Notes under the pieces: model-generated | Seen by the model: only the letters and a program-made list of their open reading frames with translations | The model's database searches: none | Told to the model about the DNA's origin: nothing | Origin: a virus | IMG/VR virus record: IMGVR_UViG_3300048135_000088 | Location: 1 to 33,191 of that record | Length of the DNA stretch: 33,191 bases | Strand: one strand, 5' to 3' | Translations under genes and position numbers: made by a program | In this document: positions 9,244 to 33,191 of the stretch, piece after piece | How positions within the stretch are numbered: position 1 is the first letter of the stretch | Layout of the letters: the number at the start of each line of letters is the position of its first letter

Positions 9244-10851
9244 CCCTATTGATGCCTCTTCTGTAATGTTTCTATCAAGTGCTTGTTGATTAGATACCTC
9301 ACTACTTACAACAAATGCTTTAACAGGTTTCTGTTCTTGGTCTCCTATTACTTGTGCTAATTGGTTTTCAGGTGCTGCTCCTACTATATTAAAACTTGGA
9401 GGTGCAGGTGCTGCTGCTTCTCTACCGCCTGATACTCCACCACCACCCATAGCAGATGCTGAACCTTTAGCAGCGTTTACTGCAGATTTTACACTTGATA
9501 TAATACCTGCTGCTTGTGCTGCAAAAGCAATTAACAATGGAACGTTTTGTGGAAACCCTACTTTAGCTGTACTTGCTGCTCCTTTGGCAGTATCAACAGT
9601 TGCTTCACTTGCTCTTAATGCTATTCTTTGTAGTGTAGCTTTAGCTTCTGATATTTGTTCTTTTATTAATATAGCTTGTTTAGCAATAAACAATGCTCTA
9701 CCTATTTTAGTCTCTGCTCCTGCTGCATCTATCGTTGCATCTAAAGCATCATAGGTTGCCTGTTTCTTTGCCTCTGCTAATTCTAATTCTTTTTGTTTTA
9801 TTTCTTCTTTTCTTTCTAATTCTGCTTCATCAGCTTCTTTCTTTAAATCTGCTGCTTCACGTTCTAAAGAAATACGATTAATTAATTGTTCTGAACGGAA
9901 TCCTTCTATTTGTGCTTCTATTGCTGCTGCTTCATTTTTTGCTTCTTGTAAAGCTATAAAATTTTCATCACTATCATTTTTATCATATTGTGCTTGTGCT
10001 GCTCTTTCTATTGCAGCAGCGTTTTCAAGCATCTTCTCTGCTTGTTCATCTAATATCTCACCTAACTTTTCATTTGCTGCTATACGCTCTTCTATGGTCT
10101 TTGTTTCGTCATCTCTTAACTGCCTTTGTTGTTCTGCTTGTCTATCGTACTTCTCAATAAGACCTTGATTAATAACTGCAGCAATCTCTGCAGCTTTATT
10201 TAATTCAACTGTTTCTTTAGCAAGTTTAACAGTATTATTTGTGTAGTCTACTATACCTTTAACTACTTTAGGAACTACTTCAGATACTTTGTCAAATGTA
10301 TTATTTACTCCTGTTACTACATCAAATAATTCTTTACCTGCGTTTTTGGCACTTTCTGCTGCACCTGCAAAATCTCCGCTAAATACCTTTACTACTGCAT
10401 CACCTAAAAATCCTAAAGCATCTAATGCACTTTTAACTCTTTCTATTACATTATCTACTATAGCTTGACCAAAGTTTTTTAATGATTGTACAGGGTTTTC
10501 AAATAAACCTTTAAAATAGTCTATTACAGTTCCTACATTGGAATCAAGGAATTTAAAAAAATCATTAAATGCTAAACTTAATACCTCAAAGGTTGTATTA
10601 AACGCATCTGCTACTTTTTGGTTCTGATTAAATACCTCTGCTAACTTTGCAAAAGCAGCAACTGCTAAACCAATACCTGCAGCTTTAAGTGCGTTACCAA
10701 TTCCCTTAACACCTTTTGCTACACCTCCTGTTGTATCTTTTACTTCTTCAAGGTTGTCATCTATACGCTGTACGCTTTTAGCTACACCATCTAAATCCTT
10801 TTGTGCTTTATCTACTTTAGCTTCAAGTTCTATTGTCTTTTTTACTGCCAT
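9241..10851 (-). CDS. Tail tape measure protein
   Basis: 536 aa. It begins MAVKKTIELEAKVDKAQKDL with a coiled coil, then a Gly/Ala-rich hydrophobic segment (ALKAAGIGLAVAAFAKLAEV). A helical body follows, then a long charged coiled coil at about 225-365 with heptad-like 'EAADLKKEADEAELERKEE'. Next come hydrophobic helices (FPQNVPLLIAFAAQAAGIIS), and the tail ends Ala/Gly/Pro-rich. Tape measure proteins set tail length and pass into the host envelope during DNA ejection. At 536 aa it is short, implying a tail of very roughly 80 nm using the usual 1.5 angstrom per residue rule. It starts 10 nt inside the end of a 46-aa gene. Confidence 0.75.
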   Translation of the reverse strand: MAVKKTIELEAKVDKAQKDLDGVAKSVQRIDDNLEEVKDTTGGVAKGVKGIGNALKAAGIGLAVAAFAKLAEVFNQNQKVADAFNTTFEVLSLAFNDFFKFLDSNVGTVIDYFKGLFENPVQSLKNFGQAIVDNVIERVKSALDALGFLGDAVVKVFSGDFAGAAESAKNAGKELFDVVTGVNNTFDKVSEVVPKVVKGIVDYTNNTVKLAKETVELNKAAEIAAVINQGLIEKYDRQAEQQRQLRDDETKTIEERIAANEKLGEILDEQAEKMLENAAAIERAAQAQYDKNDSDENFIALQEAKNEAAAIEAQIEGFRSEQLINRISLEREAADLKKEADEAELERKEEIKQKELELAEAKKQATYDALDATIDAAGAETKIGRALFIAKQAILIKEQISEAKATLQRIALRASEATVDTAKGAASTAKVGFPQNVPLLIAFAAQAAGIISSVKSAVNAAKGSASAMGGGGVSGGREAAAPAPPSFNIVGAAPENQLAQVIGDQEQKPVKAFVVSSEVSNQQALDRNITEEASIG

Positions 10852-20587: not shown

Positions 20588-20615
20588 ATACAATAAAACT
20601 TTTTATAAAGTGTTA
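20588..20615 (-). promoter_or_regulatory. Late-type bipartite motif, site 5 (terminase unit)
   Basis: Minus strand TAACACT (20615-20609; five of seven bases match, its TAA is the stop of the DnaA-like gene), 15-nt spacer, TTGTAT (20593-20588), 26 nt before the TerS ATG. Repeated TTAA steps fill the leader at 20573-20587. It would drive terminase with the other late units. Confidence 0.5.
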
Positions 20616-21068
20616 ATTGATAAAACCATATTTAGCATAAAACTTTTCTCTCTTGTGATGCTTTTGGTATAGTTCGTTATAATCTTTAGTTAGTTGTTGT
20701 ATTGTTTCTCTTTGTTGTTTTACCTCATCTTTTAAAGCTGCGTATTGTAGTACGATACTTTCGTCTGTATGTAACATTTCTTCAGCATCTTGTTCTACTG
20801 CTTTTAGTTTGTTTTTAAGTGCGGTGTAATTATTTCTTACCATCTTATCTTTCTCAATCCAAGATTCAAGTTGTCTTATACCGTGTAGTACACTTGCGTA
20901 GTGTCTGTTTACTTCTTCACCTATAGAGGTTAAACTTAATCGTGTGCTGTCTCTTGTTAGTTTAAAATACATTGCACGTGCTTCTACGTATTCTCTTTTT
21001 CTTGTTGTAGCATCTATCTTTAGTTCAAAATAGTTTTCTACTAGTTTTTTAATCGTCTCTTTGTTCAT
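20613..21068 (-). CDS. DnaA domain-IV-like replication protein
   Basis: 151 aa. Residues about 22-72 read like the DNA-binding domain IV of DnaA: 'RKREYVEARAMYFKLTRDST', 'SLTSIGEEVNRHYASVLHGI'. The 'IG.....RHYASVLHGI' helix-turn-helix corresponds to the DnaA signature that contacts the DnaA box (IG..F..RDH.TV..A). There is no AAA+ ATPase domain. Instead, residues about 85-140 form a coiled coil ('LKDEVKQQRETIQQLTKDYN'). It is likely a phage initiator or a DnaA competitor that binds origin sequences and brings in other proteins through the coiled coil. The start overlaps the 71-aa gene by 20 nt. Confidence 0.7.
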   Translation of the reverse strand: MNKETIKKLVENYFELKIDATTRKREYVEARAMYFKLTRDSTRLSLTSIGEEVNRHYASVLHGIRQLESWIEKDKMVRNNYTALKNKLKAVEQDAEEMLHTDESIVLQYAALKDEVKQQRETIQQLTKDYNELYQKHHKREKFYAKYGFIN

Positions 21069-21264
21069 TTTCTAATTTATTAATTATATCTTTTATTGTC
21101 ATAAATCCTGATTCGTGTATTGCTTTTAGTATTCCTGCACACGCCTCATATTCTTCTGCTTCTTCATATAGGTTAATAGCTTCTTCAAGTTCTGCAATAC
21201 TTCTGCCATTTGTTATATCTACTAAAGCAAGTAAGTAAAACTCTTCTATTATATCTTTATTCAA
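21049..21264 (-). CDS. Small helical acidic protein (71 aa, hypothetical)
   Basis: MNKDIIEEFYLLALVDITNG at the start, then 'SIAELEEAINLYEEAEEYEA' and 'GFMTIKDIINKLENEQRDD'. It is very acidic and predicted as three or four helices, TPR-like in feel but too short for a repeat array. It is coupled to the glycosyltransferase gene by ATGA (21264-21261) and overlaps the DnaA-like gene by 20 nt. It could be a partner of either neighbour. No family recognised. Confidence 0.6.
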   Translation of the reverse strand: MNKDIIEEFYLLALVDITNGRSIAELEEAINLYEEAEEYEACAGILKAIHESGFMTIKDIINKLENEQRDD

Positions 21265-22001
21265 AATAAGCTTTGCTGTTTGCTTTGCAATATATTATAA
21301 CTATTTTTATTTAGCAATATTTCATTTTCTCTTTTTGGGTTAAGCTTAATACATTCACCCCATTTTTGTTTCAAGTATTCTATAGTTTCCTGTTCTAATT
21401 TATTTGTTCTGTAACTTACTGCACCCCCTGAATTACTATAATGCCTAAAAGAATTTAAATACTTTTGGTACCTGATGCATCCATATTCTTTAATATGCTG
21501 CAAAGTGTAGTCATAATCTTCCTTCAGCCTTAAATTAACATCAAACCTTAAAGGGTTTGGTTTTATTAAAATAAAATCACCTACAATAAACTTATTATAT
21601 TCAAACTCTTTTAATGCAAAGAATGGGTTATTAGTTGGAGGAAAGCCTGCAAACTTATATTCGCTATTGTTGAAGTGAGGCAGTACATAATTTAAAACAG
21701 TATTAATATCTACATACTGTTTCGTACGCTTACCTGTAAAATCATTTAGCATTATATTATCAAGGTCATCACTTAATTGTATGCTTATTTTGTTTCTTTG
21801 AAAACAGTATTCTAAACTTGCATTCCTGCTGTCCATTAGTGTACCGCTAATAACTACTTCCTTAGCACCATTATCAATGTAATTCTTTTTGTCTAATTCG
21901 TCTTTTACAAAAAAAACAATGTCATCAGTACCTATTGTATTATAAAAACTTTTTATATTTTCAGATCTGTTGTGGCTAATACAAGTTATTATATAATCCA
22001 T
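21261..22001 (-). CDS. GT-A-like glycosyltransferase, candidate DNA-base glycosyltransferase
   Basis: 246 aa. It starts MDYIITCISHNRSENIKSFY, a nucleotide-binding opening strand and helix. 'GTLMDSRNASLEYC' (53-66) leads to 'KISIQLSDDLDNIM' (71-84), whose D79-x-D81 is a GT-A DXD-type metal/nucleotide-sugar motif. 'NLRLKEDYDYTLQHIKEYGC' (156-175) supplies a later acidic base-like pair, followed by 'FRHYSNSGGAVSYRT'. The order fits the TET/JBP-associated glycosyltransferase (TAGT) group described by Iyer and colleagues, which glycosylates hydroxylated bases in phage DNA. It is coupled to the nuclease-like gene (TAATG). If right, it puts a sugar on 5-hydroxymethyl-pyrimidine made by the neighbouring dioxygenase. 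The alternative is modification of a protein or surface glycan. Confidence 0.7.
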   Translation of the reverse strand: MDYIITCISHNRSENIKSFYNTIGTDDIVFFVKDELDKKNYIDNGAKEVVISGTLMDSRNASLEYCFQRNKISIQLSDDLDNIMLNDFTGKRTKQYVDINTVLNYVLPHFNNSEYKFAGFPPTNNPFFALKEFEYNKFIVGDFILIKPNPLRFDVNLRLKEDYDYTLQHIKEYGCIRYQKYLNSFRHYSNSGGAVSYRTNKLEQETIEYLKQKWGECIKLNPKRENEILLNKNSYNILQSKQQSLF

Positions 22002-22471
22002 TATATATCAAGTTTAGTTTGTGTAGAATATTTTGCAGCACAAAGCCTATCAGCTTTTCGTGTACTTAATAAAAAACCTATTTCTTGACCGCCTGTAGCT
22101 GATTTAAACCCTTTAATAGGTTGCAAATCATTTTCTTCATAATACGTTCTTAAATGCTTTGTAGCAATTATCCAAAAATTATCACTATCACCTATAATAT
22201 AAAATAATTGAGTAGTTTTTGTATCCCTATATATTCCACTTGAGTATTCTTTTCCGCTGCCTGCATATACTCTTTTGACAGATATATATAAATTTCCTGT
22301 CTTTTTATATTTTTGGTCATTTTTAATTTCAAAGCCCTGCCTGTTTTCACCTCTTGTAAATTGACCTGTTTTGCTTACAAAATGGCTGAGCGGTATATTG
22401 TGTACATCATTAAAATAATCATATACTTTTTCTTCAAATTCATTAGCTTGTACTTGTTTCTTTATGTCCAT
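22001..22471 (-). CDS. Restriction-endonuclease-like (PD-(D/E)XK) protein in the modification cassette
   Basis: 156 aa. An N-terminal helix (EFEEKVYDYFNDV) is followed by 'FTRGENRQGFEIKND' with E48-I-K50, then 'YKKTGNLYISVKRVY'. Further strands are 'TTQLFYIIGDSDNFWIIAT' and a C-terminal 'GFLLSTRKADRLCAAKY'. 'G.EIK.D......GNLYI.V' is a recurrent core of PD-(D/E)XK nuclease domains: E and K of the (D/E)XK pair, then a strand. No methyltransferase partner is present. Between an oxidase and a glycosyltransferase, it could cut DNA lacking (or carrying) the modification, for example host DNA. It could also be inactive and serve as a reader. It overlaps the glycosyltransferase gene as TAATG and lies 12 nt below the dioxygenase. 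Confidence 0.6.
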   Translation of the reverse strand: MDIKKQVQANEFEEKVYDYFNDVHNIPLSHFVSKTGQFTRGENRQGFEIKNDQKYKKTGNLYISVKRVYAGSGKEYSSGIYRDTKTTQLFYIIGDSDNFWIIATKHLRTYYEENDLQPIKGFKSATGGQEIGFLLSTRKADRLCAAKYSTQTKLDI

Positions 22472-22483
22472 TGTTGTTAATTT

Positions 22484-23362
22484 TTATAATGTTAAATATC
22501 CTGTTTTTTGTTGTTTAATTTCTTGTAGCTGTTCGGTGGGGCTTTTACATTGGTACATATATTCCCTATAGTATAACACAAAGCTAATCCGCAGCCAGTC
22601 ATCCTCACAGTTTGTATATTCTGTGTTTCCGTGCCATTTGTGTACATCAACAAATAACAAGTCTGTATTTTGCATATCAATAGCAACTCCATACTCAGGC
22701 AGTACAAAATAACCGCCACCCCAGTTACCTTCTCTGTAAATAACTAAGTTACCAAACCCATCCCTAAAGTCGCCAGCATCTTGATGCACCGCAGTCCTAA
22801 AGTTTTTATTTACCGTAACTGTTGTAAAGCTAGTATCGTCTATTACATAGTTTTGATTCGTGCCTACTGCTATAGCTTTTTGTCTAGCGTAATGTTCAGG
22901 GCAAAGTTCCTCATACTTTTTGTCTATGTATTGTACAAAGGGTATACCTGCTTTAAACTCTTCAAAGTATTTTTTGGCAAATGCTGTTTTCCTGCAGTAA
23001 TGCACCATCGCACTTTTATCCATATACCCTACACTACCTGACTCAACCTTATTACCTACAGTTATATTACTTACTGAACCATCTTTACGGATACGTTTAT
23101 GGCTGCTCCCACTTGCTGCACCCCTGCTTTCTGTAATTTCTATACTGTTTTTAAATGCTTCGTAACCGCTTTTTAATAAGTCAAAAGGTATTGCGTTTTT
23201 ACGATACCTAAACAATAACTCACCAGTATAATAATCGTATCCATCAGCATCACTTGTAATTAGTTTGTTATAATGCTTTTTGCTTAGGTACTTTGTTTTA
23301 AGCTTTGCAGCTTGCTTTTCGTCAAGTATCCTTTTTAACCTATACTGTTCCATATCGTTCAT
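22484..23362 (-). CDS. TET/JBP-family 2-oxoglutarate/Fe(II) dioxygenase (DNA base hydroxylase)
   Basis: 292 aa. The conserved order of phage TET/JBP proteins is visible: 'SVGYMDKSAMVHYCRKTAF' (110-128), 'PFVQYIDKKYEELCPEHYAR' (141-160), 'TVTVNKNFRTAVHQDAGDFR' (181-200), 'DGFGNLVIYREGNWGGGYFV' (201-220) and 'LLFVDVHKWHGNTEY' (235-249). The iron ligands would be H193 and D195 (HxD) with H244 (HGN), and R258 in 'DWLRISFVLYYRE' would bind 2-oxoglutarate. The family hydroxylates the methyl group of thymine (JBP) or 5-methylcytosine (TET) in DNA. It starts inside the end of the 72-aa gene; a second Met lies at codon 4. No methyltransferase is encoded, which favours thymine or a host-methylated base as substrate. 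Confidence 0.88.
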   Translation of the reverse strand: MNDMEQYRLKRILDEKQAAKLKTKYLSKKHYNKLITSDADGYDYYTGELLFRYRKNAIPFDLLKSGYEAFKNSIEITESRGAASGSSHKRIRKDGSVSNITVGNKVESGSVGYMDKSAMVHYCRKTAFAKKYFEEFKAGIPFVQYIDKKYEELCPEHYARQKAIAVGTNQNYVIDDTSFTTVTVNKNFRTAVHQDAGDFRDGFGNLVIYREGNWGGGYFVLPEYGVAIDMQNTDLLFVDVHKWHGNTEYTNCEDDWLRISFVLYYREYMYQCKSPTEQLQEIKQQKTGYLTL

Positions 23363-23558
23363 TTAATATTTTTAATAAAAAGTCACTAAGGTTTCCCTTT
23401 TGTTGGTACTCATCGTTAAACTCTATTTTTATACCAGTCTTGCAAAGCTTTTTAAATTGCCTTAGTTCTTGCTTACTAAAATATAAAATTGTAGTAGTTA
23501 TTTCTGTTTCGTCTACAGGGCTATTGTCTACACCCCAGTTATCCTCAAATAGTTTCAT
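23340..23558 (-). CDS. Small hypothetical protein (72 aa) before the dioxygenase
   Basis: MKLFEDNWGVDNSPVDETEI at the start, then 'TTTILYFSKQELRQFKKLCK', 'TGIKIEFNDEYQQKGNLSDF' and 'LLKILNERYGTV'. It appears to hold a strand followed by a helix-turn-helix-like pair, but the match is too weak to call. It is coupled by ATGA to the exonuclease gene (23558-23555) and overlaps the dioxygenase gene by 23 nt. It could be an accessory to either. No family recognised. Confidence 0.6.
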   Translation of the reverse strand: MKLFEDNWGVDNSPVDETEITTTILYFSKQELRQFKKLCKTGIKIEFNDEYQQKGNLSDFLLKILNERYGTV

Positions 23559-31494: not shown

Positions 31495-33191
31495 TACTTA
31501 ATTGCTAAATAGATGTAGGTTTCTCCACTACCATTCCATCCTGAATTACTTGTTGATAATTGAAACCCATCGCTTAAAAAACTAAATCTACCTGCATATG
31601 TAGTGTCAGCATTAGATAAGTTAGGAAACAATACAATATCTTTTCCTCTTGAAGTATCGTATATCATCCAATTATCTGATAAGGATGTCGGTTTAAGTAT
31701 TACAAATCTTGGAGCAAATTCTGTTGTAACTGATAATGTCCCTCCATTCCCTGTATAACTCCCTATCTTCTGATAGCCTGTAACAGAGTGGAAGCAGTAG
31801 GCGATGTAAGTTGAACCACTTGAATTAGTTGATGTATCATTTCCTACACTTACAACTGTACTTGTAGCTGGACTTGGAAATACACCAGAAGAAGTACCGC
31901 CTGCCGAAGATGTGTTTAGTTTCATATAATTTGGCGGCGTATTTGTTGTATCATACAATACAAACCAATCCTCTGTAGCACTTGTTCTTTTTACTATAAC
32001 CAGTTCAGGTAACGAGCTTAATCCGTGTCCAAAACTTGCGTTAGAACCTGTCCCTGTATACTTCACAATACTAAACCCTGCCTCTGCATTTACACTTACT
32101 ACACTATCTATACTACCCTCTGTGTTTATCTGTGGGAGGTTGTCATCGTGGTCTCCTGCCTTGAAAACCCAAGCTACGTAGTTTTGTGAACTTCTATTTA
32201 CATAATAGTTACTTGTATTTGTTTGGTCTACTGTAAATCCATTTGTATTAAAAGATTCTAAAGCAGGGTTAGCAGTTTGGTCTATTTCAGCTATAGTTTG
32301 ATTTGACGATAGTAAATATTGATTACCTCTAACAGAATCAAATAATGCGTGGTGTGATGCATTTGTACGTTCTTTAACCCAAATTAGGTCAGGTTTAAAA
32401 TCTGTATCAATACTTTGAGTTCCACCATTCCCTGTATAAGTAACAACATCAAAGCTATTCTCTACAGTTGGAGTAGTAGTATCAGGGTCTGCTGCTATAG
32501 CTAGGTAGATGTAGGTATCACCGCTTGTATTCCATCTTCCACCATTTATTATAAACCCATCAGCTAGAAATGTAGGTATATTTGATTCTAATGATTCTGC
32601 TCCACTTGTATTAGCATATAATTCATTATTGTCTCTCTCATTATCTACAATAACCCAAGGTTGAGTGCCATCAGTATTCTTCAAAAGTAAAAACTGTGGT
32701 TGGAATCCTGTTTCTACAAGGTTATCTTCACCTGTCCCATCATAGCTACCGACTTTTTGGTAGTTGTCTACGCTGTGGAAACAGTAGGCGATAACATCTT
32801 CTGAAGCATACCCCCAATTTGTTATAGTTGTTGATGAAATTGTTAGTCCTGAAGTATTTACTTTTGCAGCAGTAGTATCAAGTCGTAAATAATCTAAACT
32901 ACCATCTATTGCTGTTGTTAAAGTCCACCATCCACTTGATGATAAACTTTTAGTAATTACTAATTCAGGTGTAGCAGATAATCCGTGCCCGACTTGACCA
33001 TTTGATGAGCCATCAGCAGACCACTTCACAATACTAAACCCTGCATCCTGATTAGCCTTTACAGTACTTTCTATAGTTCCATCGTTATTAGTAGCTGATG
33101 CACCTTCTCCTGCATTGAAACACCAAGCTGCGTATGTTGAACCATTTGCATTTGTATGGCTACCTGAACCTACCTCTACTGTAAAACCATT
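31494..33191 (-). CDS. Giant tail fibre / adhesin, C-terminal part (partial, 5' end off the window)
   Basis: This is the continuation of the frame at 1-1731. Bases 33051-33191 repeat the left end, so the new sequence is 33050-31494 (518 codons plus TAA). It holds several beta-rich repeats of the DUF7483 type, each with a 'GHGL...PELVI.K' start, a 'Y.AYCFH.V..YQK.GSY.G.G' middle and a '.FLSDGF......W..SG.TYIYLAI' end. Examples are VGHGLSATPELVIT, IAYCFHSVDNYQKVGSYDG and FGHGLSSLPELVIV. The family is known from marine phages as tail-fibre or capsid decoration; its fold and ligand are not established to my knowledge. An internal Met at 33029 gives a 511-aa frame, but sequence continuity through the ends argues that this is not the true start. 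The stop overlaps the next gene's ATG (TAATG). Confidence 0.75.
   Translation of the reverse strand, partial: NGFTVEVGSGSHTNANGSTYAAWCFNAGEGASATNNDGTIESTVKANQDAGFSIVKWSADGSSNGQVGHGLSATPELVITKSLSSSGWWTLTTAIDGSLDYLRLDTTAAKVNTSGLTISSTTITNWGYASEDVIAYCFHSVDNYQKVGSYDGTGEDNLVETGFQPQFLLLKNTDGTQPWVIVDNERDNNELYANTSGAESLESNIPTFLADGFIINGGRWNTSGDTYIYLAIAADPDTTTPTVENSFDVVTYTGNGGTQSIDTDFKPDLIWVKERTNASHHALFDSVRGNQYLLSSNQTIAEIDQTANPALESFNTNGFTVDQTNTSNYYVNRSSQNYVAWVFKAGDHDDNLPQINTEGSIDSVVSVNAEAGFSIVKYTGTGSNASFGHGLSSLPELVIVKRTSATEDWFVLYDTTNTPPNYMKLNTSSAGGTSSGVFPSPATSTVVSVGNDTSTNSSGSTYIAYCFHSVTGYQKIGSYTGNGGTLSVTTEFAPRFVILKPTSLSDNWMIYDTSRGKDIVLFPNLSNADTTYAGRFSFLSDGFQLSTSNSGWNGSGETYIYLAIK
33051..33191. repeat. Right copy of the 141-bp terminal direct repeat
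   Basis: Partner of 1-141, offset 33050. On the coding strand both differences change an amino acid: Ala (left) versus Glu (right) in the codon before AGT, and Ala versus Ser about 28 bp upstream in the gene. Overlapping the copies gives a circle of 33,050 bp with an unbroken fibre frame. Confidence 0.9.

Follow-up and report, generated by a model that had tools for sequence, protein, structure and literature searches.

What does a TET/JBP dioxygenase oxidize in a phage in which no DNA methyltransferase is detectable, and which enzymes finish the modified base? This question is raised by a 33,191-base stretch of DNA, IMG/VR virus record IMGVR_UViG_3300048135_000088 (hereafter, the window), which comes from a marine bacterial virus and encodes a TET/JBP oxygenase next to a small conserved protein (UP72), a predicted PD-(D/E)XK-like protein (NUC) and a glycosyltransferase. 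On balance, we consider it probable that these genes form a post-replicative DNA base-hypermodification cassette in which the TET/JBP oxygenase and UP72 are combined with exchangeable, clamp-docked decorating enzymes, thymine being the likeliest substrate. This reading rests on family assignments, predicted folds, synteny, gene exchange in a single slot, absence searches and the conservation of C-terminal tails. The cassette genes are as follows (aa, amino acids):

23340-23558, minus strand: UP72, a 72-aa protein and constant part of the cassette (overlaps the start of the oxygenase gene and is conserved upstream of it)
22484-23362, minus strand: TET/JBP Fe(II)/2-oxoglutarate dioxygenase, 292 aa (Pfam PF12851 and invariant motif)
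22001-22471, minus strand: NUC, a 156-aa protein with a predicted PD-(D/E)XK-like fold (alignment of 27 homologues and structural model)
21261-22001, minus strand: predicted GT-A glycosyltransferase related to TAGT, 246 aa, in the exchangeable decorator slot (profiles and structural model)

The oxygenase scores 98.4 bits against the Pfam family Tet_JBP (PF12851; curated cut-off 34.9, E-value 3.4e-28), and the HxD...HGN...R set from which the initial annotation of this DNA had recognized the family is invariant in the alignment, with H193-x-D195 and H244 (H244-G-N) as the Fe(II) ligands and R258 as the distal arginine; a sequence search against solved structures gave no TET match for this protein. 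The three adjacent open reading frames (ORFs) described in that annotation, 21261-22001, 22001-22471 and 22484-23362, are indeed present on the minus strand, with a gap of 12 nucleotides (nt) between the oxygenase and NUC genes and a 1-nt overlap between the NUC end and the glycosyltransferase start, but UP72, the exchangeable slot and the C-terminal tails had been overlooked. Of the 84 clade loci counted, 83 have the UP72 gene immediately ahead of the oxygenase gene, and only in L094 does it lie one gene farther away; five further loci without UP72 belong to distant phages (L019-L023). The protein has no Pfam match, and searches of Pfam, NCBIfam and PADLOC gave only chance-level matches.

Exchange of predicted finishing enzymes next to the oxygenase

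An alignment search of IMG/VR yielded 390 stretches with relatives of the oxygenase, 80 of which were kept; the clade records considered here (n = 85) are 84 IMG/VR records and the genome of phage P12024L, and loci are labelled L followed by three digits (L095 is phage P12024S). As shown by local profile searches, more than 80 related loci possess a common core, UP72-TET(-NUC), and, after the oxygenase and usually after NUC, an exchangeable slot that is occupied by a glycosyltransferase (GTw when of the window type), a TAGT protein, a P-loop kinase (KIN), or an Amino acid:DNA transferase (ADDT, Pfam PF18724) together with a kinase. The complete cassettes include NUC-GTw (20), NUC-TAGT (18), NUC-ADDT-KIN (10), NUC-KIN (10), TAGT (5), GTw (3) and rarer sets. 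The survey of related genomes that had been suggested as a check thus bears out the synteny of the cassette and reveals frequent exchange of the glycosyltransferase.

On the oxygenase tree (n = 69), the slot label changes at least 22 times, the mean for shuffled labels being 33. Near-identical oxygenases adjoin different decorators in L083 (GTw) and L085 (ADDT), in L002 (GTw) and L003 (ADDT), and in L059 (TAGT) and L066 (KIN). The L003 oxygenase is 99% identical to that of the window, and the gene that follows its NUC encodes an ADDT (PF18724, E-value 4.7e-19). Given these pairs, one oxygenase product seems, from sequence comparison, to serve several finishing enzymes.

In the window, the slot is occupied by the glycosyltransferase, for which the AlphaFold2 model (predicted local distance difference test score, pLDDT, 90.2) is matched by GT-A enzymes at Z-scores up to 14.4, in agreement with the initial assignment to the GT-A fold. 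The profile comparison with TAGT fared less well: the protein reaches 21.7 bits against Pfam TAGT (PF20691), under the curated cut-off of 27.5 (E-value 2e-4), although it matches phrog_842 with an E-value of 3e-14. Other occupants of the same slot do pass the PF20691 cut-off, and these TAGT homologues align along the full length of the window protein, with D78, D79, D162 and D164 invariant. Judging from the model, this protein is a TAGT-related GT-A enzyme, and we place it outside the TAGT family because of the score under the cut-off.

The KIN proteins show a relationship to PF18751 as well as to gp4 of Coopervirus Zemanar (hhalign 97% over 95 columns). Kinase cassettes without a neighbouring ADDT were found in L004, L005, L006, L007, L032 and L062-L066. 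In the 61-kb record L017 (positions 9959-10850), the oxygenase gene is split by a frameshift and is followed by genes for an ADDT, a pyridoxal phosphate (PLP)-type enzyme, a kinase and a phrog_757 methyltransferase. Public annotation of these families can be misleading: at L097 2875-3465 and 785-1759 and at L096 41685-42248, DNA-modification kinases are annotated as 'terminase small subunit' and TET proteins as 'queuine tRNA-ribosyltransferase', and other TET records carry the name 'SNF2 DNA repair protein'.

Thymine or 5-methylcytosine as the substrate

Profile searches of the window with PF00145, PF01555, PF00303 and phrog_757 gave no match, and no methyltransferase motif IV was found in its open frames of at least 80 codons, so that, as initially annotated, the window contains no detectable C5- or N6/N4-methyltransferase and no detectable dUMP hydroxymethylase. 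Among the 13 clade records of at least 24 kb, 11 lack PF00145, although one of these 11, L017, has the phrog_757 methyltransferase; it is mainly in such long records that the absence counts because many of the others are fragments. No PF00303 protein was found in the clade IMG/VR records searched.

The alternative that has to be weighed first is that the same cassette acts on 5-methylcytosine (5mC) made by the host and produces glycosylated 5-hydroxymethylcytosine (5hmC), which we regard as unlikely, though as the likeliest of the alternatives, and several points count in its favour and against thymine. The phage TETs with demonstrated activity reportedly act on 5mC in conjunction with C5-methyltransferases (Burke et al. 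2021). PF00145 proteins are encoded in 8 of the 85 clade records (L015, L016, L047, L048, L053, L055, L057 and L087), making 5mC possible at least in these eight. The clade kinase shows only 28% in hhalign against PF18748, the family of the characterized 5-hydroxymethyluracil (5hmU) kinase of phage M6. The use of 5mC by phage TETs alongside C5-methyltransferases is also restated in PMC12730594, and TAGT enzymes include that of phage T6, which glucosylates already glucosylated cytosine (PMC13216743). Conversely, PF00145 is missing from 77 of the 85 records, including 11 of the 13 long ones, reliance on one host methyltransferase would narrow the host range, and the occurrence of ADDT and kinase genes beside near-identical oxygenases suits a 5hmU pathway better.

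This last observation connects the clade to known thymidine chemistry. The ADDT family PF18724 is matched by gp51 of phage M6 (E-value 1.4e-46), the DNA of which is thymidine-hypermodified (PMC6449724); the known 5hmU DNA kinase phosphorylates 5hmU, not 5hmC (PMC6457204); and thymidine hypermodification has been proposed in a 2025 genome report for a Rhodococcus phage that encodes a ParB/TET/aGPT-Pplase2/kinase set (PMC11955845). Because the ADDT family belongs to thymidine hypermodification, thymine is the substrate favoured by the sequence evidence, with host-made 5mC as a possible one. Of the initial proposal, hypermodification by a TET/JBP oxygenase and a glycosyltransferase with no phage methyltransferase is supported by the absence searches, by the conserved gene order of more than 80 loci and by the families and predicted folds, and direct oxidation of thymine to a base-J-like product, made plausible by the ADDT and kinase exchange, is tempered by the eight PF00145 records and by possible 5mC from the host.

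A substrate methylated elsewhere, namely, methylated adenine or N4-methylcytosine supplied by N6/N4 methyltransferases, appears very improbable. An N6/N4 methyltransferase gene directly follows the TAGT gene of P12024L, but such a gene is missing from the window, occurs in few other loci of the local hidden Markov model map and in none of the slots, and is present at another locus in the sister phage P12024S, which has no detectable oxygenase.

C-terminal tails and the sliding clamp

The last residues of the two cassette proteins downstream of the oxygenase conform to a common pattern:

21264-21278, minus strand: QQSLF, C-terminus of the glycosyltransferase, a predicted beta sliding-clamp binding motif (tail conservation in homologues)
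22004-22021, minus strand: QTKLDI, C-terminus of NUC, a putative clamp-binding motif of the hexapeptide type (many homologues have QTKLF)

Tails of the form Qxx[LMI][FL] are present in 32 of 32 GTw, 24 of 24 TAGT, 20 of 22 KIN and 5 of 7 TAGT2 proteins (counts uncorrected for relatedness), and counting only distinct tails gives 17/17 for GTw, 16/16 for TAGT and 10/12 for KIN. NUC carries such a tail in 46 of 72 cases, with 15 more of the hexapeptide type. The tails are absent from the constant neighbours, namely, the oxygenase (0/92), UP72 (0/85), the exonuclease (0/49), the terminase (0/44) and SMALL71, a small protein often encoded after the slot (0/36), and they are found in only 2 of 12 ADDT proteins and in 5 of 969 unassigned ORFs of at least 100 aa, three of the five being of the PF00145 type (L048, L053 and L087). 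Shuffled tails match the pattern in 2.9% of the cases compared to the observed 81%. In the NUC and glycosyltransferase models, the final residues are of low confidence, as expected of a flexible tail.

The beta-clamp consensus Q-L-x-L-F has been described as weak and is present at the C-termini of unrelated transposases (PMC4549789). The window QQSLF agrees with QLxLF at Q1, at the hydrophobic position 4 and at F/L5, with Q instead of L at position 2; QLNLF is found in a UmuC/DinB-type polymerase of a Winogradskyella genome. A precedent is provided by the alpha-glucosyltransferase of phage T4, which binds its sliding clamp (PMC13216743; PMC6024577). We propose that the tail shared by slot enzymes of unrelated folds and by NUC docks on the host beta clamp. 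Docking is made less certain by position 2, where most tails have Q, T or I in place of L, and by a 2026 study of T4 in which clamp binding was not the main cause of the alpha-glucosylation share (PMC13216743).

Alternatively, the tails could have nothing to do with the clamp and be conserved through the overlap of gene ends with the next start or as recombination joints of the slot. The slot genes do abut or overlap their neighbours and are frequently exchanged, as this explanation would have it; nevertheless, we find it improbable. The codons for the tail Q, L and F differ synonymously (CTA, TTG, CTG and CTT for L; TTC for F), and the tails recur on methyltransferases beyond the slot (P12024S_51, which ends in RQESLF, and the L048, L053 and L087 proteins) while being absent from the constant neighbours. 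Given the codon variation and the tails on enzymes outside the slot, gene overlap was rejected as their main cause.

Hardly any weight can be given to the possibility that the cassette modifies RNA or a surface glycan instead of DNA. Although GT-A enzymes act mostly on glycans and some relatives are recorded under the tRNA-ribosyltransferase misnomer, the linkage to TET/JBP is fixed, the slot is shared with an Amino acid:DNA transferase, and the tails are of the clamp type.

Several proteins with such tails fall outside the main cassette types. The three tailed PF00145-type proteins (L048 1954-2595, L053 5767-6438 and L087 1883-2536) are C5-methyltransferase-like sequences of 213-223 aa in which only the N-terminal portion matches the family, and the phrog_757 methyltransferase of L017 ends in QLALF. 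At the P12024S locus (L095 16313-17634) that corresponds to the TET cassette of P12024L, an ATPase-GNAT fusion and a small protein are encoded, both ending in NQISLF; this pair is possibly a different DNA-modification module.

The PD-(D/E)XK-like protein

The core GEN..G.EIK of NUC, which overlaps the stretch noted in the initial annotation, is invariant in 27 homologues, and the positions of the invariant E42 and E48-x-K50 would fit an acidic residue followed by the (D/E)xK signature. The AlphaFold2 model (pLDDT 90.7) has its top VIA-align matches in I-Ssp6803I (Z 7.8), D212 (6.2), PvuII (5.8) and RecU (5.8), all the listed matches being PD-(D/E)XK-type enzymes or complexes with Z of at most 7.8; Foldseek matches were not significant. 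The profile comparison with PD-(D/E)XK families, by contrast, came back empty, NUC belonging to no Pfam family and giving only chance-level matches in Pfam, NCBIfam and PADLOC. The predicted structure nevertheless makes a PD-(D/E)XK-like fold likely. NUC might cleave DNA that lacks the modification, or it might help to introduce the modification; it was rejected as an essential part of the cassette because some cassettes do without it.

A model of the cassette and its implications

From these observations, we infer enzymatic activity, thymine as the substrate, clamp binding and a protective role. The oxygenase, together with UP72, would hydroxylate the 5-methyl group of a pyrimidine in new phage DNA, most likely converting thymine to 5hmU, and the slot enzyme would complete the base. 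In the window, the GT-A glycosyltransferase would add a sugar, giving a base-J-like product; in relatives, the finishing enzyme would be another glycosyltransferase, a P-loop kinase, or an ADDT with a kinase. The QxxLF-type peptide would dock the decorators and NUC on the beta clamp of the host, and modification would thereby track the replication fork. The modified DNA could be shielded from host restriction, which would select for frequent replacement of the finishing enzyme.

Our confidence falls somewhat short of even for the broader proposition that widespread, probably flavobacterial phages use TET/JBP enzymes to make base-J-like or amino-acid-modified thymine in DNA by means of convergently clamp-tagged decorators, that is, an exchangeable factory riding the fork. 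A scan of bacterial genomes produced one distant oxygenase relative (33% identity) on a contig of a Winogradskyella metagenome-assembled genome (L099), which supports the flavobacterial link but does not identify a host for the window phage. If the proposition is true, thymine-oxidizing members of the TET/JBP family and a base-J-like mark are both to be found in phages, a point relevant to the proposal that JBP/TET came from phages. The exchangeable slot would then amount to a natural toolkit of DNA-decorating enzymes for one hydroxymethyl handle, and the common clamp tag would account for the way in which small phages modify DNA during its synthesis by the host replisome and would serve as a simple sequence mark for finding new DNA-modifying enzymes. 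The question is directly testable in cultured P12024L because its sister P12024S infects the same host strain and has no detectable oxygenase.

Genomic setting in the window

The cassette belongs to a minus-strand, operon-like run that includes, in order, genes for an exonuclease, UP72, the TET/JBP oxygenase, NUC, the glycosyltransferase, SMALL71 and an ORF resembling DnaA domain IV, with overlaps or gaps of at most 12 nt and with the terminase farther down. According to local profile searches, most loci have the DnaA-like ORF downstream of the cassette. The remaining features are:

21049-21264, minus strand: SMALL71, a 71-aa ORF often found after the slot, the probable end of the cassette (local profile searches)
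20613-21068, minus strand: ORF with a DnaA domain IV-like helix-turn-helix (Pfam Bac_DnaA_C, E-value 7.8e-11)
1-141, no strand: terminal direct repeat, left copy (139/141 identical to 33051-33191)
33051-33191, no strand: terminal direct repeat, right copy (pairs with 1-141)

Because its first and last 141 bases match at 139 of 141 positions, the window is probably a complete, circularly mapping genome, as it had appeared to be in the initial annotation. The repeat sits inside a tail-fibre gene, and its two mismatches may explain the absence of an end repeat from the record of this genome.

Comparison with known systems

Phage TET clusters are said to have been predicted as starting points of hypermodification by Iyer in 2013 and to have been shown as such for 5mC by Burke in 2021. 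The clusters that combine TET, a C5-methyltransferase and a glycosyltransferase, as summarized in PMC12730594, likewise place TET/JBP next to TAGT-type glycosyltransferases. In contrast to these clusters, the window and most clade members lack a C5-methyltransferase, and the clade adds a constant 72-aa partner, a PD-(D/E)XK-like protein, an exchangeable slot and clamp-type tails.

Similarly to the thymidine-hypermodified phages M6, ViI and phiW-14 (PMC6449724), relatives of the window carry ADDT (PF18724) and a P-loop kinase, and L017 also a PLP-type enzyme. However, 5hmU would arise in DNA through TET/JBP rather than from 5-hydroxymethyl-dUTP (5hmdUTP); searches of the clade records gave no PF00303 match; the clade kinase falls outside PF18748, and the window slot holds a glycosyltransferase with neither ADDT nor kinase. 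Comparable in gene order are the actinobacteriophage ParB-TET-ADDT-kinase sets (Coopervirus Zemanar; Rhodococcus phage Tonitrus, PMC11955845), in which TET is likewise followed by ADDT and a kinase and, in Zemanar, PF00145 is also missing, as in most clade members. These sets differ in having a ParB-like gene before TET in place of UP72 (searches of the clade records detected no ParB-like partner), in lacking NUC and, for the Zemanar proteins, in the absence of QxxLF tails. The cassette would work in the same manner as the kinetoplastid base J pathway (JBP1/2 and JGT), with hydroxylation of thymine in DNA followed by glycosylation.

The cultured relative is Nonlabens phage P12024L, genes 25-28 of which, with no functional study in the literature searched, share with the window UP72, an oxygenase of about 76% identity, a TAGT-type enzyme (E-value 4.2e-21) and clamp-type tails but lack NUC and include an N6/N4 methyltransferase inside the operon. 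By analogy, the predicted docking resembles that of the T4 alpha-glucosyltransferase on the clamp gp45 (PMC13216743), a DNA glycosyltransferase tied to a sliding clamp, except that T4 has one such enzyme and its own clamp, whereas here several unrelated enzyme families would use what is presumably the host clamp. Within the literature searched, a methyltransferase-free clade with a constant partner, exchange of decorators and a common clamp-type tail is new.

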